DNA of 64,000 nucleotides. Origin: Corallium rubrum (lineage: Eukaryota; Cnidaria; Anthozoa; Scleralcyonacea; Coralliidae). Position numbers and translations under genes: made by a program. The stretch covers positions 17,088,463 to 17,152,462 of the forward strand of contig OZ035997.1 in NCBI GenBank assembly GCA_964035015.1, in the 5' to 3' direction. Below, in pieces: positions 43,339 through 64,000 of the stretch. Under the pieces are notes generated by a model. That model ran no database searches. It saw only the letters and a program-made list of their open reading frames with translations, and had not been told where the DNA came from. Position 1 is the first letter of the stretch, and each line of letters opens with the position of its first letter.

Positions 43339-43371
43339 CAACGTTTATTTTCTTTTTCGTTTCTCCGCCCA

Positions 43372-43526
43372 GTAGTATCTGTTCTTATCAGCTTAATATC
43401 TGATATGCCAGGCAACGCCTGGCTCATATATTAAACTGATTTTTGGGCTTCGGCCATGGGATTGAAGCTTGCTTCGCCCTGGCCACGGGTTGTCTCGGTA
43501 TCGCACTACCTCCGAGTACGGCCCTC
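43372..43526 (+). pseudogene. U2 snRNA copy 1, 5'-truncated (array edge)
   Basis: Identical to U2 from GTAGTATCTG (nt 33) onward, but the first ~32 nt including stem-loop I are missing or strongly altered. The preceding CGTTTCTCCGCCC weakly resembles the normal CGCTTCTCGGCCT, so an internal deletion is an alternative to simple truncation. No PSE-like motif was seen at the expected distance. Confidence 0.85.
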
Positions 43527-43847
43527 TTCCCTTCGGGGAAGAACATCACTATCGAAAATAAAGTAAAAACTCATCAACAACACAACTACATACACGGCTC
43601 CCTTCCACTAATTTCGCACATCAATTCTTTATATTTTACAGATATCAACAGAACCCATCGAGTTCGACGCCGCAAGACAACACCGTCGCTAAAGACACCG
43701 AGAGGGTAGAGCAAGCACGTTTCTTTCCTCATTTTTGTTTAATCGGCATGCTGGCTATCGGAATTCAGTTGGCGACAAATTACCCTATTAACCACATGCC
43801 GCTGACTCGTAGTACCCGGTCATAGGCTTTCTGCGACAAACACATGC

Positions 43848-43936
43848 ATACTTACCTGACGCGAGAGGTACTTTGATCAACAAGGAAGTCCTCTCAGGAT
43901 GAGGCCCTCTCATTGCACTTCGACTGGGTTGACTCC

Positions 43937-43968
<32 letters not shown>

Positions 43969-44011
43969 TATAATTTCTGGTAGTGGGGACCTGCGTTCGC
44001 GCTCGTCCCCT
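43848..44011 (+). ncRNA. U1 snRNA copy 1
   Basis: About 164 nt. It begins ATACTTACCTG, the sequence that pairs with 5' splice sites. The stem-loop II loop has ATTGCAC, the U1A-binding motif. The Sm site is ATAATTTCTGG, followed by the terminal stem-loop GGGGAC...GTCCCC. U1 is a core spliceosomal snRNA transcribed by Pol II. The 5' end was placed by homology to metazoan U1; the 3' end is approximate. The candidate PSE AACCACAT lies at -58 to -51 and a candidate 3' box follows the gene. Confidence 0.95.
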
Positions 44012-44133
44012 TACAACAAACCAATCAAAAGCAAACTCATCCAACGCGCGAGCACACGGGCTTCGTGGAACATTCGATTTCACCGTTCTTATGTTCCTCG
44101 TCGACCTCTCGTGCCACAACGCCGAACGAGCGC

Positions 44134-44140
44134 TATAAAA
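44134..44140 (+). promoter_or_regulatory. TATA box of 5S copy 1 (present in every unit)
   Basis: TATAAAA at -30 to -24 of the 5S start, in the context CGCTATAAAAGC. Upstream TATA elements help Pol III transcription of 5S genes in several invertebrates. The motif recurs at the same distance before all 19 copies; the base two before CGCTATAAAA is G in subtype A and C in subtype B. Confidence 0.65.
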
Positions 44141-44163
44141 GCGATATTTTCACCTCCTCCAAT

Positions 44164-44224
44164 GTCTACGACCATACCACCGGGAAAGCACCGGTTCTCG
44201 TCTGATCACCGAAGTTAAGCCCGG

Positions 44225-44259
<35 letters not shown>

Positions 44260-44282
44260 GGGAATACCCCGTGTCGTAGACA
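44164..44282 (+). rRNA. 5S rRNA copy 1
   Basis: 119 nt, starting GTCTACGACCATACCACC and closing with the complementary GTCGTAGAC (helix I). The internal control region is intact (box A GAAGTTAAGC; box C TACTTGGATGGGTGACCGCC). TTTTT at 44,285-44,289 is the Pol III terminator. 5S rRNA is the small RNA of the large ribosomal subunit. Subtype A (T at nt 62). Confidence 0.97.
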
Positions 44283-44284
44283 CC

Positions 44285-44289
44285 TTTTT
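44285..44289 (+). terminator. Pol III terminator after 5S copy 1 (present in every unit)
   Basis: A T5 run three nt past the 5S end, followed by a T-rich pyrimidine tract (about 44,285-44,310) whose length differs along the array. Confidence 0.8.
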
Positions 44290-44344
44290 CTTTTCTTTTC
44301 TTTCTTCTTTCAGACGCTTCGAGCGCGTGGGCTGACCTGGGCCG

Positions 44345-44352
44345 AACCACAT
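44345..44352 (+). promoter_or_regulatory. Candidate PSE of U2 (every unit)
   Basis: AACCACAT at -58 to -51 of U2. The same octamer is at -58 to -51 of U1 (44853-44860). Metazoan snRNA genes have a proximal sequence element centred near -55, bound by SNAPc. The assignment is inference from position and sharing; the 5S gene lacks it. Confidence 0.6.
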
Positions 44353-44402
44353 CGTTGCTCCAGCTTCTTCCCGGGCAAAACATAACTTTTTTAGGGGTCG
44401 TT

Positions 44403-44589
44403 ATCGCTTCTCGGCCTATTGGCTAAGATCAAGTGTAGTATCTGTTCTTATCAGCTTAATATCTGATATGCCAGGCAACGCCTGGCTCATATATTAAACT
44501 GATTTTTGGGCTTCGGCCATGGGATTGAAGCTTGCTTCGCCCTGGCCACGGGTTGTCTCGGTATCGCACTACCTCCGAGTACGGCCCTC
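44403..44589 (+). ncRNA. U2 snRNA copy 2 (first complete)
   Basis: About 187 nt beginning ATCGCTTCTCGGCC, nearly identical to animal U2 through the branch-point-pairing GTAGTA (nt 33-38), the following stem IIa region (TCAGCTTAATATCTGATA) and the Sm site GATTTTTGG (near nt 100). The last stem-loop has TATCGCACTACC. U2 pairs with the intron branch point in the spliceosome. A UUCG-capped hairpin follows directly (44,588-44,605), so the true 3' end could lie up to 16 nt further. Confidence 0.97.
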
Positions 44590-44605
44590 TTCCCTTCGGG
44601 GAAGA
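44588..44605 (+). other. UUCG-tetraloop hairpin at U2 3' end (every unit)
   Basis: TCTTCCC-TTCG-GGGAAGA forms a 7-bp stem with a stable UUCG loop immediately after the U2 homology. It may be part of the U2 precursor or of a longer mature U2. In the unit with U2 at 52,907 a 2-bp deletion shortens the stem. Confidence 0.6.
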
Positions 44606-44622
44606 ACATCACTATCGAAAAT

Positions 44623-44641
44623 AAAGCAAAAACTCATCAAC
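44623..44641 (+). promoter_or_regulatory. Candidate 3' box of U2 (every unit)
   Basis: AAAGCAAAAACTCATCAAC starts 17 nt past the UUCG hairpin. A related AAAAGCAAACTCATCCAAC starts 16 nt past U1 (45,090-45,108). Pol II snRNA genes need an A-rich 3' box for 3'-end formation. The C in AAAGC is T in unit 1 and in subtype B. Confidence 0.5.
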
Positions 44642-44852
44642 AACACAACTACATACACGGCTCCCTTCCACTAATTTCGCACATCAATTCTTTATATTTT
44701 ACAGATATCAACAGAACCCATCGAGTTCGACGCCGCAAGACAACACCGTCGCTAAAGACACCGAGAGGGTAGAGCAAGCACGTTTCTTTCCTCATTTTTG
44801 TTTAATCGGCATGCTGGCTATCGGAATTCAGTTGGCGACAAATTACCCTATT

Positions 44853-44860
44853 AACCACAT
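44853..44860 (+). promoter_or_regulatory. Candidate PSE of U1 (every unit)
   Basis: AACCACAT at -58 to -51 of U1, the same octamer and the same distance as before U2. Flanking bases are not shared. Confidence 0.6.
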
Positions 44861-44910
44861 GCCGCTGACTCGTAGTACCCGGTCATAGGCTTTCTGCGAC
44901 AAACACATGC

Positions 44911-44999
44911 ATACTTACCTGACGCGAGAGGTACTTTGATCAACAAGGAAGTCCTCTCAGGATGAGGCCCTCTCATTGCACTTCGACTGGGTTGACTCC

Positions 45000-45031
<32 letters not shown>

Positions 45032-45074
45032 TATAATTTCTGGTAGTGGGGACCTGCGTTCGCGCTCGTCCCCT
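44911..45074 (+). ncRNA. U1 snRNA copy 2
   Basis: Complete; ATACTTACCTG start and Sm site intact. No difference from copy 1 seen. Confidence 0.95.
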
Positions 45075-45089
45075 TACAACAAACCAATC

Positions 45090-45108
45090 AAAAGCAAACT
45101 CATCCAAC
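45090..45108 (+). promoter_or_regulatory. Candidate 3' box of U1 (every unit)
   Basis: AAAAGCAAACTCATCCAAC, 16 nt past the terminal stem-loop, resembles the motif after U2 (44,623). Confidence 0.5.
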
Positions 45109-45226
45109 GCGCGAGCACACGGGCTTCGTGGAACATTCGATTTCACCGTTCTTATGTTCCTCGTCGACCTCTCGTGCCACAACGCCGAACGAGCGCTATA
45201 AAAGCGATATTTTCACCTCCTCCAAT

Positions 45227-45287
45227 GTCTACGACCATACCACCGGGAAAGCACCGGTTCTCGTCTGATCACCGAAGTTAAGCCCGG

Positions 45288-45322
<35 letters not shown>

Positions 45323-45345
45323 GGGAATACCCCGTGTCGTAGACA
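45227..45345 (+). rRNA. 5S rRNA copy 2
   Basis: Complete, subtype A (T62), TATA box at -30 and T5 terminator present. Confidence 0.97.
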
Positions 45346-45465
45346 CCTTTTTCTTTTCTTTTCTTTCTTCTTTCAGACGCTTCGAGCGCGTGGGCTGACC
45401 TGGGCCGAACCACATCGTTGCTCCAGCTTCTTCCCGGGCAAAACATAACTTTTTTAGGGGTCGTT

Positions 45466-45652
45466 ATCGCTTCTCGGCCTATTGGCTAAGATCAAGTGTA
45501 GTATCTGTTCTTATCAGCTTAATATCTGATATGCCAGGCAACGCCTGGCTCATATATTAAACTGATTTTTGGGCTTCGGCCATGGGATTGAAGCTTGCTT
45601 CGCCCTGGCCACGGGTTGTCTCGGTATCGCACTACCTCCGAGTACGGCCCTC
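45466..45652 (+). ncRNA. U2 snRNA copy 3
   Basis: Complete; preceded by TTTTTTAGGGG (subtype A spacer). Confidence 0.95.
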
Positions 45653-45973
45653 TTCCCTTCGGGGAAGAACATCACTATCGAAAATAAAGCAAAAACTCAT
45701 CAACAACACAACTACATACACGGCTCCCTTCCACTAATTTCGCACATCAATTCTTTATATTTTACAGATATCAACAGAACCCATCGAGTTCGACGCCGCA
45801 AGACAACACCGTCGCTAAAGACACCGAGAGGGTAGAGCAAGCACGTTTCTTTCCTCATTTTTGTTTAATCGGCATGCTGGCTATCGGAATTCAGTTGGCG
45901 ACAAATTACCCTATTAACCACATGCCGCTGACTCGTAGTACCCGGTCATAGGCTTTCTGCGACAAACACATGC

Positions 45974-46062
45974 ATACTTACCTGACGCGAGAGGTACTTT
46001 GATCAACAAGGAAGTCCTCTCAGGATGAGGCCCTCTCATTGCACTTCGACTGGGTTGACTCC

Positions 46063-46094
<32 letters not shown>

Positions 46095-46137
46095 TATAAT
46101 TTCTGGTAGTGGGGACCTGCGTTCGCGCTCGTCCCCT
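45974..46137 (+). ncRNA. U1 snRNA copy 3
   Basis: Complete; starts ATACTTACCTG; no difference from copy 2 seen. Confidence 0.95.
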
Positions 46138-46289
46138 TACAACAAACCAATCAAAAGCAAACTCATCCAACGCGCGAGCACACGGGCTTCGTGGAACATT
46201 CGATTTCACCGTTCTTATGTTCCTCGTCGACCTCTCGTGCCACAACGCCGAACGAGCGCTATAAAAGCGATATTTTCACCTCCTCCAAT

Positions 46290-46350
46290 GTCTACGACCA
46301 TACCACCGGGAAAGCACCGGTTCTCGTCTGATCACCGAAGTTAAGCCCGG

Positions 46351-46385
<35 letters not shown>

Positions 46386-46408
46386 GGGAATACCCCGTGT
46401 CGTAGACA
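46290..46408 (+). rRNA. 5S rRNA copy 3
   Basis: Complete, subtype A. Confidence 0.97.
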
Positions 46409-46528
46409 CCTTTTTCTTTTCTTTTCTTTCTTCTTTCAGACGCTTCGAGCGCGTGGGCTGACCTGGGCCGAACCACATCGTTGCTCCAGCTTCTTCCCGG
46501 GCAAAACATAACTTTTTTAGGGGTCGTT

Positions 46529-46715
46529 ATCGCTTCTCGGCCTATTGGCTAAGATCAAGTGTAGTATCTGTTCTTATCAGCTTAATATCTGATATGCCAG
46601 GCAACGCCTGGCTCATATATTAAACTGATTTTTGGGCTTCGGCCATGGGATTGAAGCTTGCTTCGCCCTGGCCACGGGTTGTCTCGGTATCGCACTACCT
46701 CCGAGTACGGCCCTC
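46529..46715 (+). ncRNA. U2 snRNA copy 4
   Basis: Complete, subtype A unit. Confidence 0.95.
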
Positions 46716-47036
46716 TTCCCTTCGGGGAAGAACATCACTATCGAAAATAAAGCAAAAACTCATCAACAACACAACTACATACACGGCTCCCTTCCACTAA
46801 TTTCGCACATCAATTCTTTATATTTTACAGATATCAACAGAACCCATCGAGTTCGACGCCGCAAGACAACACCGTCGCTAAAGACACCGAGAGGGTAGAG
46901 CAAGCACGTTTCTTTCCTCATTTTTGTTTAATCGGCATGCTGGCTATCGGAATTCAGTTGGCGACAAATTACCCTATTAACCACATGCCGCTGACTCGTA
47001 GTACCCGGTCATAGGCTTTCTGCGACAAACACATGC

Positions 47037-47125
47037 ATACTTACCTGACGCGAGAGGTACTTTGATCAACAAGGAAGTCCTCTCAGGATGAGGCCCTCTC
47101 ATTGCACTTCGACTGGGTTGACTCC

Positions 47126-47157
<32 letters not shown>

Positions 47158-47200
47158 TATAATTTCTGGTAGTGGGGACCTGCGTTCGCGCTCGTCCCCT
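47037..47200 (+). ncRNA. U1 snRNA copy 4
   Basis: Complete; splice-site-pairing region intact. Confidence 0.95.
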
Positions 47201-47352
47201 TACAACAAACCAATCAAAAGCAAACTCATCCAACGCGCGAGCACACGGGCTTCGTGGAACATTCGATTTCACCGTTCTTATGTTCCTCGTCGACCTCTCG
47301 TGCCACAACGCCGAACGAGCGCTATAAAAGCGATATTTTCACCTCCTCCAAT

Positions 47353-47413
47353 GTCTACGACCATACCACCGGGAAAGCACCGGTTCTCGTCTGATCACCG
47401 AAGTTAAGCCCGG

Positions 47414-47448
<35 letters not shown>

Positions 47449-47471
47449 GGGAATACCCCGTGTCGTAGACA
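47353..47471 (+). rRNA. 5S rRNA copy 4
   Basis: Complete, subtype A. Confidence 0.97.
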
Positions 47472-47591
47472 CCTTTTTCTTTTCTTTTCTTTCTTCTTTC
47501 AGACGCTTCGAGCGCGTGGGCTGACCTGGGCCGAACCACATCGTTGCTCCAGCTTCTTCCCGGGCAAAACATAACTTTTTTAGGGGTCGTT

Positions 47592-47778
47592 ATCGCTTCT
47601 CGGCCTATTGGCTAAGATCAAGTGTAGTATCTGTTCTTATCAGCTTAATATCTGATATGCCAGGCAACGCCTGGCTCATATATTAAACTGATTTTTGGGC
47701 TTCGGCCATGGGATTGAAGCTTGCTTCGCCCTGGCCACGGGTTGTCTCGGTATCGCACTACCTCCGAGTACGGCCCTC
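47592..47778 (+). ncRNA. U2 snRNA copy 5
   Basis: Complete, subtype A unit. Confidence 0.95.
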
Positions 47779-48099
47779 TTCCCTTCGGGGAAGAACATCA
47801 CTATCGAAAATAAAGCAAAAACTCATCAACAACACAACTACATACACGGCTCCCTTCCACTAATTTCGCACATCAATTCTTTATATTTTACAGATATCAA
47901 CAGAACCCATCGAGTTCGACGCCGCAAGACAACACCGTCGCTAAAGACACCGAGAGGGTAGAGCAAGCACGTTTCTTTCCTCATTTTTGTTTAATCGGCA
48001 TGCTGGCTATCGGAATTCAGTTGGCGACAAATTACCCTATTAACCACATGCCGCTGACTCGTAGTACCCGGTCATAGGCTTTCTGCGACAAACACATGC

Positions 48100-48188
48100 A
48101 TACTTACCTGACGCGAGAGGTACTTTGATCAACAAGGAAGTCCTCTCAGGATGAGGCCCTCTCATTGCACTTCGACTGGGTTGACTCC

Positions 48189-48220
<32 letters not shown>

Positions 48221-48263
48221 TATAATTTCTGGTAGTGGGGACCTGCGTTCGCGCTCGTCCCCT
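48100..48263 (+). ncRNA. U1 snRNA copy 5
   Basis: Complete; splice-site-pairing region intact. Confidence 0.95.
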
Positions 48264-48415
48264 TACAACAAACCAATCAAAAGCAAACTCATCCAACGCG
48301 CGAGCACACGGGCTTCGTGGAACATTCGATTTCACCGTTCTTATGTTCCTCGTCGACCTCTCGTGCCACAACGCCGAACGAGCGCTATAAAAGCGATATT
48401 TTCACCTCCTCCAAT

Positions 48416-48476
48416 GTCTACGACCATACCACCGGGAAAGCACCGGTTCTCGTCTGATCACCGAAGTTAAGCCCGG

Positions 48477-48511
<35 letters not shown>

Positions 48512-48534
48512 GGGAATACCCCGTGTCGTAGACA
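48416..48534 (+). rRNA. 5S rRNA copy 5
   Basis: Complete, subtype A. Confidence 0.97.
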
Positions 48535-48654
48535 CCTTTTTCTTTTCTTTTCTTTCTTCTTTCAGACGCTTCGAGCGCGTGGGCTGACCTGGGCCGAACC
48601 ACATCGTTGCTCCAGCTTCTTCCCGGGCAAAACATAACTTTTTTAGGGGTCGTT

Positions 48655-48841
48655 ATCGCTTCTCGGCCTATTGGCTAAGATCAAGTGTAGTATCTGTTCT
48701 TATCAGCTTAATATCTGATATGCCAGGCAACGCCTGGCTCATATATTAAACTGATTTTTGGGCTTCGGCCATGGGATTGAAGCTTGCTTCGCCCTGGCCA
48801 CGGGTTGTCTCGGTATCGCACTACCTCCGAGTACGGCCCTC
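48655..48841 (+). ncRNA. U2 snRNA copy 6
   Basis: Complete, subtype A unit. Confidence 0.95.
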
Positions 48842-49162
48842 TTCCCTTCGGGGAAGAACATCACTATCGAAAATAAAGCAAAAACTCATCAACAACACAA
48901 CTACATACACGGCTCCCTTCCACTAATTTCGCACATCAATTCTTTATATTTTACAGATATCAACAGAACCCATCGAGTTCGACGCCGCAAGACAACACCG
49001 TCGCTAAAGACACCGAGAGGGTAGAGCAAGCACGTTTCTTTCCTCATTTTTGTTTAATCGGCATGCTGGCTATCGGAATTCAGTTGGCGACAAATTACCC
49101 TATTAACCACATGCCGCTGACTCGTAGTACCCGGTCATAGGCTTTCTGCGACAAACACATGC

Positions 49163-49251
49163 ATACTTACCTGACGCGAGAGGTACTTTGATCAACAAGG
49201 AAGTCCTCTCAGGATGAGGCCCTCTCATTGCACTTCGACTGGGTTGACTCC

Positions 49252-49283
<32 letters not shown>

Positions 49284-49326
49284 TATAATTTCTGGTAGTG
49301 GGGACCTGCGTTCGCGCTCGTCCCCT
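49163..49326 (+). ncRNA. U1 snRNA copy 6
   Basis: Complete; splice-site-pairing region intact. Confidence 0.95.
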
Positions 49327-49478
49327 TACAACAAACCAATCAAAAGCAAACTCATCCAACGCGCGAGCACACGGGCTTCGTGGAACATTCGATTTCACCG
49401 TTCTTATGTTCCTCGTCGACCTCTCGTGCCACAACGCCGAACGAGCGCTATAAAAGCGATATTTTCACCTCCTCCAAT

Positions 49479-49539
49479 GTCTACGACCATACCACCGGGA
49501 AAGCACCGGTTCTCGTCTGATCACCGAAGTTAAGCCCGG

Positions 49540-49574
<35 letters not shown>

Positions 49575-49597
49575 GGGAATACCCCGTGTCGTAGACA
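49479..49597 (+). rRNA. 5S rRNA copy 6
   Basis: Complete, subtype A. Confidence 0.97.
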
Positions 49598-49717
49598 CCT
49601 TTTTCTTTTCTTTTCTTTCTTCTTTCAGACGCTTCGAGCGCGTGGGCTGACCTGGGCCGAACCACATCGTTGCTCCAGCTTCTTCCCGGGCAAAACATAA
49701 CTTTTTTAGGGGTCGTT

Positions 49718-49904
49718 ATCGCTTCTCGGCCTATTGGCTAAGATCAAGTGTAGTATCTGTTCTTATCAGCTTAATATCTGATATGCCAGGCAACGCCTGG
49801 CTCATATATTAAACTGATTTTTGGGCTTCGGCCATGGGATTGAAGCTTGCTTCGCCCTGGCCACGGGTTGTCTCGGTATCGCACTACCTCCGAGTACGGC
49901 CCTC
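49718..49904 (+). ncRNA. U2 snRNA copy 7
   Basis: Complete, subtype A unit. Confidence 0.95.
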
Positions 49905-50225
49905 TTCCCTTCGGGGAAGAACATCACTATCGAAAATAAAGCAAAAACTCATCAACAACACAACTACATACACGGCTCCCTTCCACTAATTTCGCACATC
50001 AATTCTTTATATTTTACAGATATCAACAGAACCCATCGAGTTCGACGCCGCAAGACAACACCGTCGCTAAAGACACCGAGAGGGTAGAGCAAGCACGTTT
50101 CTTTCCTCATTTTTGTTTAATCGGCATGCTGGCTATCGGAATTCAGTTGGCGACAAATTACCCTATTAACCACATGCCGCTGACTCGTAGTACCCGGTCA
50201 TAGGCTTTCTGCGACAAACACATGC

Positions 50226-50314
50226 ATACTTACCTGACGCGAGAGGTACTTTGATCAACAAGGAAGTCCTCTCAGGATGAGGCCCTCTCATTGCACTTCG
50301 ACTGGGTTGACTCC

Positions 50315-50346
<32 letters not shown>

Positions 50347-50389
50347 TATAATTTCTGGTAGTGGGGACCTGCGTTCGCGCTCGTCCCCT
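50226..50389 (+). ncRNA. U1 snRNA copy 7
   Basis: Complete; splice-site-pairing region intact. Confidence 0.95.
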
Positions 50390-50541
50390 TACAACAAACC
50401 AATCAAAAGCAAACTCATCCAACGCGCGAGCACACGGGCTTCGTGGAACATTCGATTTCACCGTTCTTATGTTCCTCGTCGACCTCTCGTGCCACAACGC
50501 CGAACGAGCGCTATAAAAGCGATATTTTCACCTCCTCCAAT

Positions 50542-50602
50542 GTCTACGACCATACCACCGGGAAAGCACCGGTTCTCGTCTGATCACCGAAGTTAAGCCC
50601 GG

Positions 50603-50637
<35 letters not shown>

Positions 50638-50660
50638 GGGAATACCCCGTGTCGTAGACA
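50542..50660 (+). rRNA. 5S rRNA copy 7
   Basis: Complete, subtype A. Confidence 0.97.
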
Positions 50661-50780
50661 CCTTTTTCTTTTCTTTTCTTTCTTCTTTCAGACGCTTCGA
50701 GCGCGTGGGCTGACCTGGGCCGAACCACATCGTTGCTCCAGCTTCTTCCCGGGCAAAACATAACTTTTTTAGGGGTCGTT

Positions 50781-50967
50781 ATCGCTTCTCGGCCTATTGG
50801 CTAAGATCAAGTGTAGTATCTGTTCTTATCAGCTTAATATCTGATATGCCAGGCAACGCCTGGCTCATATATTAAACTGATTTTTGGGCTTCGGCCATGG
50901 GATTGAAGCTTGCTTCGCCCTGGCCACGGGTTGTCTCGGTATCGCACTACCTCCGAGTACGGCCCTC
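50781..50967 (+). ncRNA. U2 snRNA copy 8
   Basis: Complete, subtype A unit. Confidence 0.95.
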
Positions 50968-51288
50968 TTCCCTTCGGGGAAGAACATCACTATCGAAAAT
51001 AAAGCAAAAACTCATCAACAACACAACTACATACACGGCTCCCTTCCACTAATTTCGCACATCAATTCTTTATATTTTACAGATATCAACAGAACCCATC
51101 GAGTTCGACGCCGCAAGACAACACCGTCGCTAAAGACACCGAGAGGGTAGAGCAAGCACGTTTCTTTCCTCATTTTTGTTTAATCGGCATGCTGGCTATC
51201 GGAATTCAGTTGGCGACAAATTACCCTATTAACCACATGCCGCTGACTCGTAGTACCCGGTCATAGGCTTTCTGCGACAAACACATGC

Positions 51289-51377
51289 ATACTTACCTGA
51301 CGCGAGAGGTACTTTGATCAACAAGGAAGTCCTCTCAGGATGAGGCCCTCTCATTGCACTTCGACTGGGTTGACTCC

Positions 51378-51409
<32 letters not shown>

Positions 51410-51452
51410 TATAATTTCTGGTAGTGGGGACCTGCGTTCGCGCTCGTCCCCT
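51289..51452 (+). ncRNA. U1 snRNA copy 8
   Basis: Complete; splice-site-pairing region intact. Confidence 0.95.
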
Positions 51453-51604
51453 TACAACAAACCAATCAAAAGCAAACTCATCCAACGCGCGAGCACACGG
51501 GCTTCGTGGAACATTCGATTTCACCGTTCTTATGTTCCTCGTCGACCTCTCGTGCCACAACGCCGAACGAGCGCTATAAAAGCGATATTTTCACCTCCTC
51601 CAAT

Positions 51605-51665
51605 GTCTACGACCATACCACCGGGAAAGCACCGGTTCTCGTCTGATCACCGAAGTTAAGCCCGG

Positions 51666-52906: not shown

Positions 52907-53093
52907 ATCGCTTCTCGGCCTATTGGCTAAGATCAAGTGTAGTATCTGTTCTTATCAGCTTAATATCTGATATGCCAGGCAACGCCTGGCTCATATATTA
53001 AACTGATTTTTGGGCTTCGGCCATGGGATTGAAGCTTGCTTCGCCCTGGCCACGGGTTGTCTCGGTATCGCACTACCTCCGAGTACGGCCCTC
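52907..53093 (+). ncRNA. U2 snRNA copy 10 (3' hairpin variant)
   Basis: The U2 body is intact, but the hairpin right after it has lost two bases (CTCTTCCC becomes CTCCCC), making this unit 1,061 bp. The end of U2 is therefore slightly uncertain. Confidence 0.93.
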
Positions 53094-53412
53094 CCCTTCG
53101 GGGAAGAACATCACTATCGAAAATAAAGCAAAAACTCATCAACAACACAACTACATACACGGCTCCCTTCCACTAATTTCGCACATCAATTCTTTATATT
53201 TTACAGATATCAACAGAACCCATCGAGTTCGACGCCGCAAGACAACACCGTCGCTAAAGACACCGAGAGGGTAGAGCAAGCACGTTTCTTTCCTCATTTT
53301 TGTTTAATCGGCATGCTGGCTATCGGAATTCAGTTGGCGACAAATTACCCTATTAACCACATGCCGCTGACTCGTAGTACCCGGTCATAGGCTTTCTGCG
53401 ACAAACACATGC

Positions 53413-55656: not shown

Positions 55657-55699
55657 TATAATTTCTGGTAGTGGGGACCTGCGTTCGCGCTCGTCCCCT
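55536..55699 (+). ncRNA. U1 snRNA copy 12
   Basis: Complete; splice-site-pairing region intact. Confidence 0.95.
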
Positions 55700-55851
55700 T
55701 ACAACAAACCAATCAAAAGCAAACTCATCCAACGCGCGAGCACACGGGCTTCGTGGAACATTCGATTTCACCGTTCTTATGTTCCTCGTCGACCTCTCGT
55801 GCCACAACGCCGAACGACCGCTATAAAAGCGATATTTTCACCTCCTCCAAT

Positions 55852-55913
55852 GTCTACGACCATACCACCGGGAAAGCACCGGTTCTCGTCTGATCACCGA
55901 AGTTAAGCCCGGG

Positions 55914-55947
<34 letters not shown>

Positions 55948-55970
55948 GGGAATACCCCGTGTCGTAGACA
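55852..55970 (+). rRNA. 5S rRNA copy 12
   Basis: Complete; first subtype B 5S, with G instead of T at nt 62 (position 55,913). This opens the A16-U62 pair at the base of helix II. Confidence 0.95.
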
Positions 55971-56086
55971 CCTTTTTCTTTTTTCTTTCTTTTTCAGACG
56001 CTTCGAGCGCGTGGGCTGACCTGGGCCGAACCACATCGTTGCTCCAGCTTCTTCCCGGGCAAAACATAACTTTTTTATGGGTCGTT

Positions 56087-56273
56087 ATCGCTTCTCGGCC
56101 TATTGGCTAAGATCAAGTGTAGTATCTGTTCTTATCAGCTTAATATCTGATATGCCAGGCAACGCCTGGCTCATATATTAAACTGATTTTTGGGCTTCGG
56201 CCATGGGATTGAAGCTTGCTTCGCCCTGGCCACGGGTTGTCTCGGTATCGCACTACCTCCGAGTACGGCCCTC
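56087..56273 (+). ncRNA. U2 snRNA copy 13
   Basis: Complete, subtype B unit. Confidence 0.95.
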
Positions 56274-56594
56274 TTCCCTTCGGGGAAGAACATCACTATC
56301 GAAAATAAAGTAAAAACTCATCAACAACACAACTACATACACGGCTCCCTTCCACTAATTTCGCACATCAATTCTTTATATTTTACAGATATCAACAGAA
56401 CCCATCGAGTTCGACGCCGCAAGACAACACCGTCGCTAAAGACACCGAGAGGGTAGAGCAAGCACGTTTCTTTCCTCATTTTTGTTTAATCGGCATGCTG
56501 GCTATCGGAATTCAGTTGGCGACAAATTACCCTATTAACCACATGCCGCTGACTCGTAGTACCCGGTCATAGGCTTTCTGCGACAAACACATGC

Positions 56595-56683
56595 ATACTT
56601 ACCTGACGCGAGAGGTACTTTGATCAACAAGGAAGTCCTCTCAGGATGAGGCCCTCTCATTGCACTTCGACTGGGTTGACTCC

Positions 56684-56715
<32 letters not shown>

Positions 56716-56758
56716 TATAATTTCTGGTAGTGGGGACCTGCGTTCGCGCTCGTCCCCT
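56595..56758 (+). ncRNA. U1 snRNA copy 13
   Basis: Complete; splice-site-pairing region intact. Confidence 0.95.
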
Positions 56759-56910
56759 TACAACAAACCAATCAAAAGCAAACTCATCCAACGCGCGAGC
56801 ACACGGGCTTCGTGGAACATTCGATTTCACCGTTCTTATGTTCCTCGTCGACCTCTCGTGCCACAACGCCGAACGACCGCTATAAAAGCGATATTTTCAC
56901 CTCCTCCAAT

Positions 56911-56972
56911 GTCTACGACCATACCACCGGGAAAGCACCGGTTCTCGTCTGATCACCGAAGTTAAGCCCGGG

Positions 56973-57006
<34 letters not shown>

Positions 57007-57029
57007 GGGAATACCCCGTGTCGTAGACA
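56911..57029 (+). rRNA. 5S rRNA copy 13
   Basis: Complete, subtype B (G62). Confidence 0.95.
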
Positions 57030-57145
57030 CCTTTTTCTTTTTTTCTTTCTTTTCAGACGCTTCGAGCGCGTGGGCTGACCTGGGCCGAACCACATCGTTG
57101 CTCCAGCTTCTTCCCGGGCAAAACATAACTTTTTTATGGGTCGTT

Positions 57146-57332
57146 ATCGCTTCTCGGCCTATTGGCTAAGATCAAGTGTAGTATCTGTTCTTATCAGCTT
57201 AATATCTGATATGCCAGGCAACGCCTGGCTCATATATTAAACTGATTTTTGGGCTTCGGCCATGGGATTGAAGCTTGCTTCGCCCTGGCCACGGGTTGTC
57301 TCGGTATCGCACTACCTCCGAGTACGGCCCTC
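57146..57332 (+). ncRNA. U2 snRNA copy 14
   Basis: Complete, subtype B unit. Confidence 0.95.
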
Positions 57333-57653
57333 TTCCCTTCGGGGAAGAACATCACTATCGAAAATAAAGTAAAAACTCATCAACAACACAACTACATACA
57401 CGGCTCCCTTCCACTAATTTCGCACATCAATTCTTTATATTTTACAGATATCAACAGAACCCATCGAGTTCGACGCCGCAAGACAACACCGTCGCTAAAG
57501 ACACCGAGAGGGTAGAGCAAGCACGTTTCTTTCCTCATTTTTGTTTAATCGGCATGCTGGCTATCGGAATTCAGTTGGCGACAAATTACCCTATTAACCA
57601 CATGCCGCTGACTCGTAGTACCCGGTCATAGGCTTTCTGCGACAAACACATGC

Positions 57654-57742
57654 ATACTTACCTGACGCGAGAGGTACTTTGATCAACAAGGAAGTCCTCT
57701 CAGGATGAGGCCCTCTCATTGCACTTCGACTGGGTTGACTCC

Positions 57743-57774
<32 letters not shown>

Positions 57775-57817
57775 TATAATTTCTGGTAGTGGGGACCTGC
57801 GTTCGCGCTCGTCCCCT
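57654..57817 (+). ncRNA. U1 snRNA copy 14
   Basis: Complete; splice-site-pairing region intact. Confidence 0.95.
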
Positions 57818-57969
57818 TACAACAAACCAATCAAAAGCAAACTCATCCAACGCGCGAGCACACGGGCTTCGTGGAACATTCGATTTCACCGTTCTTATGT
57901 TCCTCGTCGACCTCTCGTGCCACAACGCCGAACGACCGCTATAAAAGCGATATTTTCACCTCCTCCAAT

Positions 57970-58031
57970 GTCTACGACCATACCACCGGGAAAGCACCGG
58001 TTCTCGTCTGATCACCGAAGTTAAGCCCGGG

Positions 58032-58065
<34 letters not shown>

Positions 58066-58088
58066 GGGAATACCCCGTGTCGTAGACA
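57970..58088 (+). rRNA. 5S rRNA copy 14
   Basis: Complete, subtype B (G62). Confidence 0.95.
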
Positions 58089-58203
58089 CCTTTTTCTTTT
58101 TTTCTTTCTTTCAGACGCTTCGAGCGCGTGGGCTGACCTGGGCCGAACCACATCGTTGCTCCAGCTTCTTCCCGGGCAAAACATAACTTTTTTATGGGTC
58201 GTT

Positions 58204-58390
58204 ATCGCTTCTCGGCCTATTGGCTAAGATCAAGTGTAGTATCTGTTCTTATCAGCTTAATATCTGATATGCCAGGCAACGCCTGGCTCATATATTAAAC
58301 TGATTTTTGGGCTTCGGCCATGGGATTGAAGCTTGCTTCGCCCTGGCCACGGGTTGTCTCGGTATCGCACTACCTCCGAGTACGGCCCTC
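58204..58390 (+). ncRNA. U2 snRNA copy 15
   Basis: Complete, subtype B unit. Confidence 0.95.
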
Positions 58391-58711
58391 TTCCCTTCGG
58401 GGAAGAACATCACTATCGAAAATAAAGTAAAAACTCATCAACAACACAACTACATACACGGCTCCCTTCCACTAATTTCGCACATCAATTCTTTATATTT
58501 TACAGATATCAACAGAACCCATCGAGTTCGACGCCGCAAGACAACACCGTCGCTAAAGACACCGAGAGGGTAGAGCAAGCACGTTTCTTTCCTCATTTTT
58601 GTTTAATCGGCATGCTGGCTATCGGAATTCAGTTGGCGACAAATTACCCTATTAACCACATGCCGCTGACTCGTAGTACCCGGTCATAGGCTTTCTGCGA
58701 CAAACACATGC

Positions 58712-58800
58712 ATACTTACCTGACGCGAGAGGTACTTTGATCAACAAGGAAGTCCTCTCAGGATGAGGCCCTCTCATTGCACTTCGACTGGGTTGACTCC

Positions 58801-58832
<32 letters not shown>

Positions 58833-58875
58833 TATAATTTCTGGTAGTGGGGACCTGCGTTCGCGCTCGTCCCCT
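58712..58875 (+). ncRNA. U1 snRNA copy 15
   Basis: Complete; splice-site-pairing region intact. Confidence 0.95.
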
Positions 58876-59027
58876 TACAACAAACCAATCAAAAGCAAAC
58901 TCATCCAACGCGCGAGCACACGGGCTTCGTGGAACATTCGATTTCACCGTTCTTATGTTCCTCGTCGACCTCTCGTGCCACAACGCCGAACGACCGCTAT
59001 AAAAGCGATATTTTCACCTCCTCCAAT

Positions 59028-59089
59028 GTCTACGACCATACCACCGGGAAAGCACCGGTTCTCGTCTGATCACCGAAGTTAAGCCCGGG

Positions 59090-59123
<34 letters not shown>

Positions 59124-59146
59124 GGGAATACCCCGTGTCGTAGACA
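59028..59146 (+). rRNA. 5S rRNA copy 15
   Basis: Complete, subtype B (G62). Confidence 0.95.
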
Positions 59147-59260
59147 CCTTTTTCTTTTTTCTTTCTTTCAGACGCTTCGAGCGCGTGGGCTGACCTGGGC
59201 CGAACCACATCGTTGCTCCAGCTTCTTCCCGGGCAAAACATAACTTTTTTATGGGTCGTT

Positions 59261-59447
59261 ATCGCTTCTCGGCCTATTGGCTAAGATCAAGTGTAGTATC
59301 TGTTCTTATCAGCTTAATATCTGATATGCCAGGCAACGCCTGGCTCATATATTAAACTGATTTTTGGGCTTCGGCCATGGGATTGAAGCTTGCTTCGCCC
59401 TGGCCACGGGTTGTCTCGGTATCGCACTACCTCCGAGTACGGCCCTC
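59261..59447 (+). ncRNA. U2 snRNA copy 16
   Basis: Complete, subtype B unit. Confidence 0.95.
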
Positions 59448-59768
59448 TTCCCTTCGGGGAAGAACATCACTATCGAAAATAAAGTAAAAACTCATCAACA
59501 ACACAACTACATACACGGCTCCCTTCCACTAATTTCGCACATCAATTCTTTATATTTTACAGATATCAACAGAACCCATCGAGTTCGACGCCGCAAGACA
59601 ACACCGTCGCTAAAGACACCGAGAGGGTAGAGCAAGCACGTTTCTTTCCTCATTTTTGTTTAATCGGCATGCTGGCTATCGGAATTCAGTTGGCGACAAA
59701 TTACCCTATTAACCACATGCCGCTGACTCGTAGTACCCGGTCATAGGCTTTCTGCGACAAACACATGC

Positions 59769-59857
59769 ATACTTACCTGACGCGAGAGGTACTTTGATCA
59801 ACAAGGAAGTCCTCTCAGGATGAGGCCCTCTCATTGCACTTCGACTGGGTTGACTCC

Positions 59858-59889
<32 letters not shown>

Positions 59890-59932
59890 TATAATTTCTG
59901 GTAGTGGGGACCTGCGTTCGCGCTCGTCCCCT
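59769..59932 (+). ncRNA. U1 snRNA copy 16
   Basis: Complete; splice-site-pairing region intact. Confidence 0.95.
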
Positions 59933-60084
59933 TACAACAAACCAATCAAAAGCAAACTCATCCAACGCGCGAGCACACGGGCTTCGTGGAACATTCGATT
60001 TCACCGTTCTTATGTTCCTCGTCGACCTCTCGTGCCACAACGCCGAACGACCGCTATAAAAGCGATATTTTCACCTCCTCCAAT

Positions 60085-60146
60085 GTCTACGACCATACCA
60101 CCGGGAAAGCACCGGTTCTCGTCTGATCACCGAAGTTAAGCCCGGG

Positions 60147-60180
<34 letters not shown>

Positions 60181-60203
60181 GGGAATACCCCGTGTCGTAG
60201 ACA
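60085..60203 (+). rRNA. 5S rRNA copy 16
   Basis: Complete, subtype B (G62). Confidence 0.95.
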
Positions 60204-60317
60204 CCTTTTTCTTTTTTCTTTCTTTCAGACGCTTCGAGCGCGTGGGCTGACCTGGGCCGAACCACATCGTTGCTCCAGCTTCTTCCCGGGCAAAACATAA
60301 CTTTTTTATGGGTCGTT

Positions 60318-60504
60318 ATCGCTTCTCGGCCTATTGGCTAAGATCAAGTGTAGTATCTGTTCTTATCAGCTTAATATCTGATATGCCAGGCAACGCCTGG
60401 CTCATATATTAAACTGATTTTTGGGCTTCGGCCATGGGATTGAAGCTTGCTTCGCCCTGGCCACGGGTTGTCTCGGTATCGCACTACCTCCGAGTACGGC
60501 CCTC
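60318..60504 (+). ncRNA. U2 snRNA copy 17
   Basis: Complete, subtype B unit. Confidence 0.95.
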
Positions 60505-60825
60505 TTCCCTTCGGGGAAGAACATCACTATCGAAAATAAAGTAAAAACTCATCAACAACACAACTACATACACGGCTCCCTTCCACTAATTTCGCACATC
60601 AATTCTTTATATTTTACAGATATCAACAGAACCCATCGAGTTCGACGCCGCAAGACAACACCGTCGCTAAAGACACCGAGAGGGTAGAGCAAGCACGTTT
60701 CTTTCCTCATTTTTGTTTAATCGGCATGCTGGCTATCGGAATTCAGTTGGCGACAAATTACCCTATTAACCACATGCCGCTGACTCGTAGTACCCGGTCA
60801 TAGGCTTTCTGCGACAAACACATGC

Positions 60826-60914
60826 ATACTTACCTGACGCGAGAGGTACTTTGATCAACAAGGAAGTCCTCTCAGGATGAGGCCCTCTCATTGCACTTCG
60901 ACTGGGTTGACTCC

Positions 60915-60946
<32 letters not shown>

Positions 60947-60989
60947 TATAATTTCTGGTAGTGGGGACCTGCGTTCGCGCTCGTCCCCT
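60826..60989 (+). ncRNA. U1 snRNA copy 17
   Basis: Complete; splice-site-pairing region intact. Confidence 0.95.
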
Positions 60990-61141
60990 TACAACAAACC
61001 AATCAAAAGCAAACTCATCCAACGCGCGAGCACACGGGCTTCGTGGAACATTCGATTTCACCGTTCTTATGTTCCTCGTCGACCTCTCGTGCCACAACGC
61101 CGAACGACCGCTATAAAAGCGATATTTTCACCTCCTCCAAT

Positions 61142-61203
61142 GTCTACGACCATACCACCGGGAAAGCACCGGTTCTCGTCTGATCACCGAAGTTAAGCCC
61201 GGG

Positions 61204-61237
<34 letters not shown>

Positions 61238-61260
61238 GGGAATACCCCGTGTCGTAGACA
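61142..61260 (+). rRNA. 5S rRNA copy 17
   Basis: Complete, subtype B (G62). Confidence 0.95.
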
Positions 61261-61374
61261 CCTTTTTCTTTTTTCTTTCTTTCAGACGCTTCGAGCGCGT
61301 GGGCTGACCTGGGCCGAACCACATCGTTGCTCCAGCTTCTTCCCGGGCAAAACATAACTTTTTTATGGGTCGTT

Positions 61375-61561
61375 ATCGCTTCTCGGCCTATTGGCTAAGA
61401 TCAAGTGTAGTATCTGTTCTTATCAGCTTAATATCTGATATGCCAGGCAACGCCTGGCTCATATATTAAACTGATTTTTGGGCTTCGGCCATGGGATTGA
61501 AGCTTGCTTCGCCCTGGCCACGGGTTGTCTCGGTATCGCACTACCTCCGAGTACGGCCCTC
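61375..61561 (+). ncRNA. U2 snRNA copy 18
   Basis: Complete, subtype B unit. Confidence 0.95.
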
Positions 61562-61882
61562 TTCCCTTCGGGGAAGAACATCACTATCGAAAATAAAGTA
61601 AAAACTCATCAACAACACAACTACATACACGGCTCCCTTCCACTAATTTCGCACATCAATTCTTTATATTTTACAGATATCAACAGAACCCATCGAGTTC
61701 GACGCCGCAAGACAACACCGTCGCTAAAGACACCGAGAGGGTAGAGCAAGCACGTTTCTTTCCTCATTTTTGTTTAATCGGCATGCTGGCTATCGGAATT
61801 CAGTTGGCGACAAATTACCCTATTAACCACATGCCGCTGACTCGTAGTACCCGGTCATAGGCTTTCTGCGACAAACACATGC

Positions 61883-61971
61883 ATACTTACCTGACGCGAG
61901 AGGTACTTTGATCAACAAGGAAGTCCTCTCAGGATGAGGCCCTCTCATTGCACTTCGACTGGGTTGACTCC

Positions 61972-62003
<32 letters not shown>

Positions 62004-62046
62004 TATAATTTCTGGTAGTGGGGACCTGCGTTCGCGCTCGTCCCCT
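61883..62046 (+). ncRNA. U1 snRNA copy 18
   Basis: Complete; splice-site-pairing region intact. Confidence 0.95.
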
Positions 62047-62198
62047 TACAACAAACCAATCAAAAGCAAACTCATCCAACGCGCGAGCACACGGGCTTCG
62101 TGGAACATTCGATTTCACCGTTCTTATGTTCCTCGTCGACCTCTCGTGCCACAACGCCGAACGACCGCTATAAAAGCGATATTTTCACCTCCTCCAAT

Positions 62199-62260
62199 GT
62201 CTACGACCATACCACCGGGAAAGCACCGGTTCTCGTCTGATCACCGAAGTTAAGCCCGGG

Positions 62261-62294
<34 letters not shown>

Positions 62295-62317
62295 GGGAAT
62301 ACCCCGTGTCGTAGACA
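62199..62317 (+). rRNA. 5S rRNA copy 18
   Basis: Complete, subtype B (G62). Confidence 0.95.
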
Positions 62318-62431
62318 CCTTTTTCTTTTTTCTTTCTTTCAGACGCTTCGAGCGCGTGGGCTGACCTGGGCCGAACCACATCGTTGCTCCAGCTTCTTCC
62401 CGGGCAAAACATAACTTTTTTATGGGTCGTT

Positions 62432-62618
62432 ATCGCTTCTCGGCCTATTGGCTAAGATCAAGTGTAGTATCTGTTCTTATCAGCTTAATATCTGATATGC
62501 CAGGCAACGCCTGGCTCATATATTAAACTGATTTTTGGGCTTCGGCCATGGGATTGAAGCTTGCTTCGCCCTGGCCACGGGTTGTCTCGGTATCGCACTA
62601 CCTCCGAGTACGGCCCTC
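62432..62618 (+). ncRNA. U2 snRNA copy 19
   Basis: Complete; the U2 of the diverged unit itself shows no change. Confidence 0.95.
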
Positions 62619-62939
62619 TTCCCTTCGGGGAAGAACATCACTATCGAAAATAAAGTAAAAACTCATCAACAACACAACTACATACACGGCTCCCTTCCAC
62701 TAATTTCGCACATCAATTCTTTATATTTTACAGATATCAACAGAACCCATCGAGTTCGACGCCGCAAGACAACACCGTCGCTAAAGACACCGAGAGGGTA
62801 GAGCAAGCACGTTTCTTTCCTCATTTTTGTTTAATCGGCATGCTGGCTATCGGAATTCAGTTGGCGACAAATTACCCTATTAACCACATGCCGCTGACTC
62901 GTAGTACCCGGTCATAGGCTTTCTGCGACAAACACATGC

Positions 62940-63103
62940 ACACTTTCCTGATGCGAGAGGTACTTTGATCAACAAGGAAGTCCTCTCAGGATGAGGCCCT
63001 CTCATTGCACTTCGACTGGGTTGACTCCTGCGATTACCCCAAATGTGGGTAACTTGAGCGTATAATTTCTGGTAGTGGGGACCTGCGTTCGCGCTCGTCC
63101 CCT
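62940..63103 (+). ncRNA. Variant U1 snRNA copy 19 (altered 5' end)
   Basis: Reads ACACTTTCCTGATGCG instead of ATACTTACCTGACGCG: U2C, A7U and C13U. A7 pairs with the invariant U at intron position +2, so this RNA would no longer pair with a normal GU 5' splice site. A further C-to-T lies near the Sm site (AACTTGAG). The PSE candidate (62,882-62,889) and the rest are kept. Either a decaying pseudogene or a variant U1. Confidence 0.8.
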
Positions 63104-63255
63104 TACAACAAACCAATCAAAAGCAAACTCATCCAACGCGCGAGCACACGGGCTTCGTGGAACATTCGATTTCACCGTTCTTATGTTCCTCGTCGACCTC
63201 TCGTGCCACAACGCCGAACGACCGCTATAAAAGCGATATTTTCACCTCCTCCAAT

Positions 63256-63373
63256 GTCTACGACCATACCACCGGGAAAGCACCGGTTCTCGTCTGATCA
63301 CCGAAGTTAAGCCCGGGCGGGCGGGTTAGTACTTGGATGGGTGACGGCCTGGGAATACCCCGTCTCGTAGACA
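63256..63373 (+). pseudogene. 5S rRNA copy 19, degenerate
   Basis: 118 nt. Besides the subtype B G62, one G is missing from GCGGGGTTAG, GTGACCG is GTGACGG in the box C region, and the 3' end reads GTCTCGTAGAC instead of GTGTCGTAGAC. The pyrimidine tract after it is the shortest in the window. Likely non-functional. Confidence 0.75.
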
Positions 63374-63482
63374 CCTTTTTCTTTTTCTTTCAGACGCTTC
63401 GACCACGTGGGCTGACCTGGGCCGAACCACATCGTTGCTCCAGCTTCTTCCCGGGCAAAACATAACTTTTTTATGGGTCGTT

Positions 63483-63669
63483 ATCGCTTCTCGGCCTATT
63501 GGCTAAGATCAAGTGTAGTATCTGTTCTTATCAGCTTAATATCTGATATGCCAGGCAACGCCTGGCTCATATATTAAACTGATTTTTGGGCTTCGGCCAT
63601 GGGATTGAAGCTTGCTTCGCCCTGGCCACGGGTTGTCTCGGTATCGCACTACCTCCGAGTACGGCCCTC
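63483..63669 (+). ncRNA. U2 snRNA copy 20
   Basis: Complete, subtype B; follows the diverged unit, so the array continues normally. Confidence 0.95.
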
Positions 63670-63990
63670 TTCCCTTCGGGGAAGAACATCACTATCGAAA
63701 ATAAAGTAAAAACTCATCAACAACACAACTACATACACGGCTCCCTTCCACTAATTTCGCACATCAATTCTTTATATTTTACAGATATCAACAGAACCCA
63801 TCGAGTTCGACGCCGCAAGACAACACCGTCGCTAAAGACACCGAGAGGGTAGAGCAAGCACGTTTCTTTCCTCATTTTTGTTTAATCGGCATGCTGGCTA
63901 TCGGAATTCAGTTGGCGACAAATTACCCTATTAACCACATGCCGCTGACTCGTAGTACCCGGTCATAGGCTTTCTGCGACAAACACATGC

Positions 63991-64000
63991 ATACTTACCT
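63991..64000 (+). ncRNA. U1 snRNA copy 20 (cut by window end)
   Basis: Only the first ten nt, ATACTTACCT, are in the window; they are canonical. Confidence 0.9.

Follow-up and report, generated by a model that had tools for sequence, protein, structure and literature searches.

The 64,000-nucleotide stretch of Corallium rubrum DNA analysed here (the window; contig OZ035997.1, hereafter C1, positions 17088463-17152462) carries part of a tandem array of U2 and U1 small nuclear RNA (snRNA) genes and 5S rRNA genes. The next 200 kb were also examined, so that the sample drawn from the 474-Mb assembly (312 contigs) comprises 264 kb plus short loci. Taken together, these sequences suggest that an array with a homogenised core and the 5S-U2-U1 organisation of Acropora doubles as a tolerant retrotransposon target at three fixed sites, a reading that we consider likely. 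Arrays of this type have been published for corals before; what is newer here is the site-specific retrotransposon insertions, which lie outside the window.

Gene calling with Rfam 15 at gathering thresholds over the whole window returned 58 matches (20 U2, 19 U1 and 19 5S), all on the + strand and spanning positions 43348-63674, with E-values (7e-20 to 6e-40) that exclude chance. U2 was full length in 19 of 20 cases (183.9-185.8 bits), the first copy lacking its 5′ end. All 19 U1 genes reached the full-length model, 18 at 155.5 bits and a degenerate one at 142.8 bits, and the 19 5S genes scored between 97 and 117.5 bits. In sequence, the 5S appears to resemble that of cnidarians. The genes follow one another as U2, U1 and 5S, a tandem order that reads 5S-U2-U1-5S when counted from 5S. 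In the reference unit, U2 occupies 44403-44594 (RF00004, 183.9 bits, model 1-192), U1 44911-45074 (RF00003, 155.5 bits, model 1-166) and 5S 45227-45345 (RF00001, 117.5 bits, model 1-120), all on the + strand, and the U2-U1 spacing is 316 bp in every reference unit. A preliminary description of this DNA had named the failure of the Rfam models on U1 or U2 as a test; it was run, and both models matched. The gene identities, order, strand, period of about 1.06 kb, copy number and homogenised state given there all hold. Its span of 43340-64000 was correct inside the window, where the array runs from 43348 to 64000 (+ strand), but the array continues beyond the edge, to 100487. Tandem Repeats Finder, run on the window with a maximum period of 500, did not report the array because the unit is longer than this limit.

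Nineteen complete units of 1051-1063 bp were delimited, the last of which finishes 540 bases past the window edge. Units 1-8, of 1063 bp each, are identical to one another. When each unit was compared with units 1, 9, 12, 16 and 19, the minimum identity was 98.6% excluding unit 18, which drops to 97.6%. A second unit subtype replaces the first between units 9 and 13, units 9-12 forming the transition, and the pyrimidine tract 3′ of 5S shrinks along the array. The U2 of unit 9 (52907-53098, + strand) is two bases shorter near its 3′ end, as seen with Rfam and the unit comparison. This comparison supports, at the level of sequence, the concerted evolution of U2, U1 and 5S that had been proposed. 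Unit 18 (62432-63482, + strand) combines the degenerate U1 with the 97-bit 5S: its U1 has four substitutions, one at nucleotide (nt) 7, which we take to lie inside the stretch pairing with 5′ splice sites, and its 5S has a deletion plus two private changes. By these marks, it is probably a dead unit. It is followed by the last full U2 of the window called by Rfam (63483-63674, + strand), past which the array goes on (L009-L012).

In window coordinates, the + array extends to 100487 (about 100.5 kb), and an inverted part begins at 167786 with minus-strand units whose 5S genes lie 2.8-13.6 kb apart. Further triple units were found on contigs C7 and C192 and at 76 Mb of C1 (L001-L008, on C192, C7 and C1:76.04-76.11 Mb, loci chosen by identical 5S and not a random sample), and a partial unit consisting of U1 and the start of the following spacer at C1:14.79 Mb (L034). 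Identity to the reference unit, derived from BLAST pieces, revealed clear decay in the minus-strand part (U1 97.9%, U2 97.1%, 5S 95.8%).

Analysis of the U2 5′ ends revealed a dominant interruption between nt 22 and nt 23 (nt 22|23). With the 5′-truncated first U2 of the window omitted, 30 of the 38 ends in the + array are continuous across nt 17-33 and the other 8 stop after nt 22. These 8 all occur at positions above 69.8 kb, past the window edge, intermixed with 6 whole U2 (8/14 split). Outside the + array, uninterrupted 5′ ends number 0/19 (0/11 in the minus-strand part and 0/8 at L001-L008), and all 11 minus-strand ends break after nt 20-22. Split units are absent from the core and mixed with whole ones at the right flank; the inverted and distant parts showed no others. 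On the 3′ side, the seven completed inserts of the + array all resume at U2 nt 23, while ten minus-strand U2 3′ pieces resume at nt 22-24 (six) or nt 35-39 (four, all of them behind second elements located at nt 34-41).

The inserts at nt 22|23 measure mainly 6085 bp (A2) or about 1.7-1.8 kb. A2 contains stop-to-stop frames of 595 and 1177 codons. The second open reading frame (ORF2) has APE endonuclease and reverse transcriptase (RT) domains in Pfam, with zf-RVT slightly below cut-off, and its closest solved structure is LINE-1 ORF2p (2e-79). Among its 120 listed database relatives, identity peaks at 64% across the full length and at 70% across a part, and a single one bears a species name, that of the octocoral Paramuricea clavata. 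The shorter elements (A1, A3-A7, B11 and the first parts of B1 and B8) share pairwise identities of about 82-98%; they lack an RT and carry an ORF1-like frame that reaches 484 codons. This frame, of 476-484 codons, is open in A1, A3, A5 and A7 and not open in A4 and A6; from this pattern, the 1.8-kb elements (L009-L012; also L021, L026 and L028) are perhaps ORF1-only passengers rather than decayed fragments. Pfam detected no domain in either ORF1, and a CCHC-like motif was judged by eye in both translations. The longer inserts B0, B2, B4, B5, B7, B9 and B10 contain A2 relatives, frequently nested or broken.

Two published non-LTR retrotransposon groups insert in U2. In the accessible part of PMC4640811, the U2 sequence behind Utopia in Phytophthora is given as beginning at nt 39, a flank that Keno reportedly shares. 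Keno identity was rejected for A2 and its relatives, whose U2 flank starts at nt 22-24 and not at nt 39. Judged by these flanks, U2 nt 22|23 is a site different from the published Keno/Utopia site.

A second U2 site was revealed by B1, B8 and B9, in which an element of the 1.8-kb type or a decayed relative is followed by U2 nt 23-34 or 23-41, a second element, and U2 from nt 35-39. Because a short U2 fragment precedes the second elements (B1b, B8b and B9b) and U2 nt 35-39 follows them, they were placed at U2 nt 34-41. The nested order (U2 1-22, 1.8-kb element, U2 23-41, second element, U2 38-192), with U2 23-41 lying between the two elements, indicates two separate U2 sites and a 4-bp duplication. 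B1b combines an APE-type endonuclease and a LINE-type (long interspersed nuclear element) RT with the 4-bp duplication, and its U2 flank starts at nt 38. The RT of B8b is nearer R2 (2e-34) than LINE-1 (1.5e-18), and its flank starts at nt 39. B9b, related to B8b and with a flank from nt 35, aligns to R2 at its C-terminal end, including the zinc-binding stretch and the endonuclease region; the evidence for a restriction-like endonuclease (RLE) consists of this B9b alignment only, with no domain model of its own. Two more ends, at L003 and at 259381 in window coordinates, belong to B1b relatives and resume at U2 nt 35-36. Since the Keno/Utopia flank starts at nt 39 (PMC4640811, accessible text), U2 nt 34-41 would be the known site and the dominant nt 22|23 another. 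The truncated U2 at the left array edge (43348-43531, + strand, 123.4 bits) shows U2 similarity from about nt 33, a start judged by eye, near this second site. As an origin of the edge, a window retroelement was considered, and no similarity to the inserts emerged.

Insertions were also found in U1, again between nt 22 and nt 23. There are five in three regions: B3 and B6 in the minus-strand part, L008 at C1:76.04 Mb, and two in tandem at L034, namely a B3 relative (94% identical) and a 1302-bp element, X, in which no protein was recognised. Four of the five resume at U1 nt 23 and B6 at nt 28, and target duplications of 5 bp (B3) and 12 bp (X) were identified. B6 harbors a zinc knuckle and APE and RT domains, with an RT nearest to LINE-1 entries; B3 displays a zinc knuckle, zf-RVT and an RT match below cut-off. 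L008 shows 69% DNA identity to B6 and about 34% protein identity to B3. The database relatives of B3 comprise 87 proteins, the top-scoring of which matches 98% of the query at 39% identity, while a few shorter matches attain 58%; a single species name, that of a fish, occurs among the 87. Breaks elsewhere in U1, or any in 5S, were not seen in the units examined, and 5S was discarded as a further target for lack of any split copy among these units. Just before the insertion point, the U1 target reads GGTACT, and the 5′ ends of B3 and B6 (L022 and L024) carry the complementary AGTACC, a correspondence that could be accidental or could reflect how the elements insert.

To find copies outside U1, the 3′ ends of B3, L008 and B6 were used as queries, X being left out. 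Five of the eight copies with a visible 3′ end lie inside U1. As U1 genes are a tiny share of the genome, this proportion argues for U1 targeting with leakage, and the preference for U1 is, on this count, apparently strong but leaky. Other matches were located at C1:17.47 Mb, where the 3′ end is not visible, and at C8:38.08 Mb (weak and internal).

An RT tree was computed from 144 columns and 32 rows, the tool's support mark being 95/80 on both values. B3, B6 and B1b form one group (88/100, below this mark), and the U2 nt 22|23 elements lie in another part of the tree (92/97, also below it). The grouping of the U1-element RTs with B1b, an element of the Keno site, suggests a switch of target between U1 and U2 within one 1-kb unit. 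We therefore advance, tentatively and with slightly less than even confidence, that APE-type elements target U1 nt 22|23, that the target was switched between U2 and U1, and that at least four target-specific groups occupy the three sites. Such a switch may have been enabled by the physical linkage of U1 and U2.

Candidate expression signals were found in the reference unit. The octamer AACCACAT is common to the upstream regions of U1 (44853-44860, + strand) and of the next U2 (45408-45415, + strand), at -58 in both, and is a putative proximal sequence element (PSE). An 8-mer common to both upstream regions at an equal offset ±1 occurred in 27 of 20000 shuffles, odds that are flattered because the octamer was picked by eye and tested afterwards. 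In the minus-strand part, it is exact upstream of 8 of 11 U2 (one at -59) and one base off in 3, and upstream of 11 U1 there are 8 exact copies, 2 with a single mismatch and 1 exact copy displaced to -43. For 5S, TATAAAA at -30 to -24 (45197-45203, + strand) is a likely external Pol III promoter element and TTTTT on the 3′ side (45348-45352, + strand) a likely Pol III terminator.

We propose that U2 and U1 would be transcribed by Pol II from the common PSE at -58, and 5S by Pol III aided by the TATA box and stopping at TTTTT. Unequal exchange and gene conversion, suggested by the identity of neighbouring units and the subtype gradient, would keep the core homogeneous. Several non-LTR groups insert at U2 nt 22|23, U2 nt 34-41 and U1 nt 22|23, presumably through target-primed insertion by each element's own endonuclease. 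Each insertion splits one gene copy, which probably loses its function, and leaves the other genes of the unit whole. By analogy with rDNA for R1 and R2, the array could thus be a reservoir of RNA genes that at the same time tolerates the retrotransposons landing in it.

Several points weigh against this proposal or restrict it. The B3 and B6 frames are broken. Three relatives among the eight copies with a visible 3′ end have a non-U1 3′ flank, at C8:52.94 Mb (96% to B6), C8:50.60 Mb (84%) and C51:1.61 Mb (95% to L008 over 76 bases), and strict U1 specificity was dropped for this reason. Only 2% of 200 bootstrap trees pair B3 with B6; a single U1-element lineage is thus not supported and, since the tree does not make them sisters, the switch perhaps occurred more than once. 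An automatic 14-mer comparison of the upstream regions gave nothing above shuffles; the PSE octamer was noticed by eye later and tested post hoc. The split zone at the right flank of the + array is conserved like the core (U1 99.95%, U2 100%, 5S 99.35%), and the gene copies of L001-L008 are mostly 98-100% identical. Being so well preserved, split units may still undergo homogenisation. The idea that every split unit decays was accordingly dropped, the split copies of the + array being as well preserved as the core, and the description of a graveyard is, on these identities, apparently fitting for the minus-strand part only. The insertion counts are local, as they come from 264 kb plus short loci, and near-identical units may contain assembly errors.

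The linkage itself has precedents, known to us from the accessible portions of the reports cited here. In Acropora pruinosa, the unit is 5S-ITS1-U2-ITS2-U1-ITS3-5S, head to tail, and the array of A. digitifera was estimated at 423,641 bp; this triple unit was presented as the first such linkage in Cnidaria (PMC8167085). The present array has in common with it the genes, the order 5S-U2-U1-5S, the head-to-tail arrangement and a great length. It differs by a unit of about 1.06 kb, as against a 1731-bp probe obtained between 5S primers in Acropora, and by its insertions, which are absent from the description of the Acropora array in the accessible text of PMC8167085. In Hydractinia echinata, a 5998-bp repeat contains 5S, U1, U2, an Arg tRNA and five histone genes, and its snRNAs and 5S are transcribed (PMC5011920); 5S, U1 and U2 thus share one tandem unit in both animals, whereas the histone genes are present only in Hydractinia. 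A U2-5S linkage is reported from Favites (PMC9005458). Oysters (5S-U2), the Senegal sole (5S with U1, U2 and U5) and a crustacean (5S-U1), all cited in PMC8167085, display the same tandem linkage of snRNA and 5S genes with other gene sets and in other lineages. For Nematostella, arrays of 5S, tRNA and U5 are described, with no RNA arrays found in other cnidarian genomes according to the accessible text of PMC11067881, a statement that conflicts with the Acropora report (PMC8167085). The view of the preliminary description that such a unit is not widely described is not supported in view of the triple linkages published in Acropora (PMC8167085) and Hydractinia (PMC5011920) and the U2-5S linkage of Favites (PMC9005458), and a novel triple linkage was discarded because of the first two.

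Given these precedents, the strongest alternative is that the locus combines the published cnidarian 5S-U2-U1 linkage with ordinary copies of Keno and Utopia and holds nothing new, which is a real possibility, if a doubtful one. The gene order equals that of Acropora (PMC8167085). Keno is known from frogs, fish, lancelet and hydra (PMC4640811), and the published flank at nt 39 fits B8b (nt 39), B1b (nt 38), B9b (nt 35) and the two ends at nt 35-36. B1b resembles Keno (PMC4640811) in its APE endonuclease, LINE-type RT and U2 insertion, with a flank at nt 38 instead of nt 39. The likeness of B8b and B9b to Utopia, an RLE-type element in U2 (PMC4640811), is at the level of type, through the R2-like RT of B8b and the R2-like C-terminal region of B9b; the Utopia flank at nt 39 is matched by B8b, and that of B9b starts at nt 35. 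However, most insertions resume at U2 nt 22-24, unlike Keno (PMC4640811), and their RTs are set apart in the tree (92/97, under the 95/80 mark), while the U1 group occupies another gene. The U1 insertions are unmatched among the snRNA-gene transposons in the accessible text of PMC4640811, with a database-only Repbase entry possible. According to that source, only a DNA transposon had been reported for U1 by 2015. This is Dada-U1 of zebrafish, a DNA transposon with a DDE transposase at a fixed U1 site (PMC3706591, accessible text). B3, B6 and L008 share with it a fixed site inside U1, but Dada-U1 identity was rejected, B6 having APE and RT domains, B3 zf-RVT and a sub-cut-off RT, and L008 being related to B6. 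Further Dada targets were described in 2022, with no U1 retrotransposon named in the accessible part of PMC8869645. Our literature search, including the accessible parts of PMC4640811, PMC3706591 and PMC8869645, with Repbase and most subscription papers outside its scope, returned no U1-targeting non-LTR element. Because Repbase lay outside the sources searched, the novelty of the U1-targeting elements and of the U2 nt 22|23 group holds only relative to these sources.

It is unlikely that the U1 break points reflect random LINE insertions or recombination rather than target choice. The three relatives outside U1 speak for it, and the B3 and L034 copies, 94% identical, could be one event copied with the unit. 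Yet the five insertions represent at least four kinds (B3/L034, B6, L008 and X) and all resume within 5 nt of one bond in a 164-nt gene, the duplications of B3 and X differ (5 versus 12 bp), and the units examined contain no other U1 break and no 5S break. Slightly less probable still is that the assembler inflated or rearranged the repeats, making the true copy number much lower or higher and the inverted part a misjoin, since, although eight consecutive identical 1063-bp units would also be expected from repeat expansion, subtype changes and the shrinking pyrimidine tract are ordered along the array, different insertions distinguish many of the units beyond the window, and triple units recur on C7, C192 and C1:76 Mb.

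The window harbors other features besides the array. A LINE-like open reading frame of 1190 codons with APE and RT domains lies at 32149-35721 (+ strand); its closest database relative is 60% identical, and its named relatives are scattered among a lancelet, a pearl oyster, a fish and bacterial bins. Just 5′ of it, a frame at 31168-32148 (+ strand) resembles an SGNH-type ORF1 by eye, with no Pfam match. Genes of a Gypsy-like long terminal repeat (LTR) retrotransposon occupy 19018-23835 (- strand), with a zinc knuckle, RT and RNase H and a protease match below cut-off; a gag-like frame (23323-23835) and an integrase-like frame (19018-20241) were recognised by eye. Two frames at 11138-12167 (- strand) were judged by eye to resemble the GIY-YIG ends of Penelope-like elements, the first with no Pfam match, and frames at 5159-9014 (+ strand) resemble by eye exons of a ZC3H13-like gene, two of them with no Pfam match. 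Elsewhere in the assembly, the 97-kb contig C129 (L029-L032) contains one complete COX1 frame in the standard code plus several broken or rearranged COX1 pieces. Its best COX1 frame has 15 TGG and no TGA Trp codons, a codon use unlike that of cnidarian mitochondria, and C129 is perhaps the mitochondrion of a symbiont or contaminant.

Alone, the array adds one more genome with a published arrangement. Together with its insertions, it offers a natural test case for the way in which site-specific retrotransposons select and switch targets, as related elements use U2 or U1. It also reveals that U2 similarity counts can mislead, every U2 being split in the units examined outside the + array. Should insertion specific to U1 be confirmed, the known targets of non-LTR retrotransposons would grow by one.

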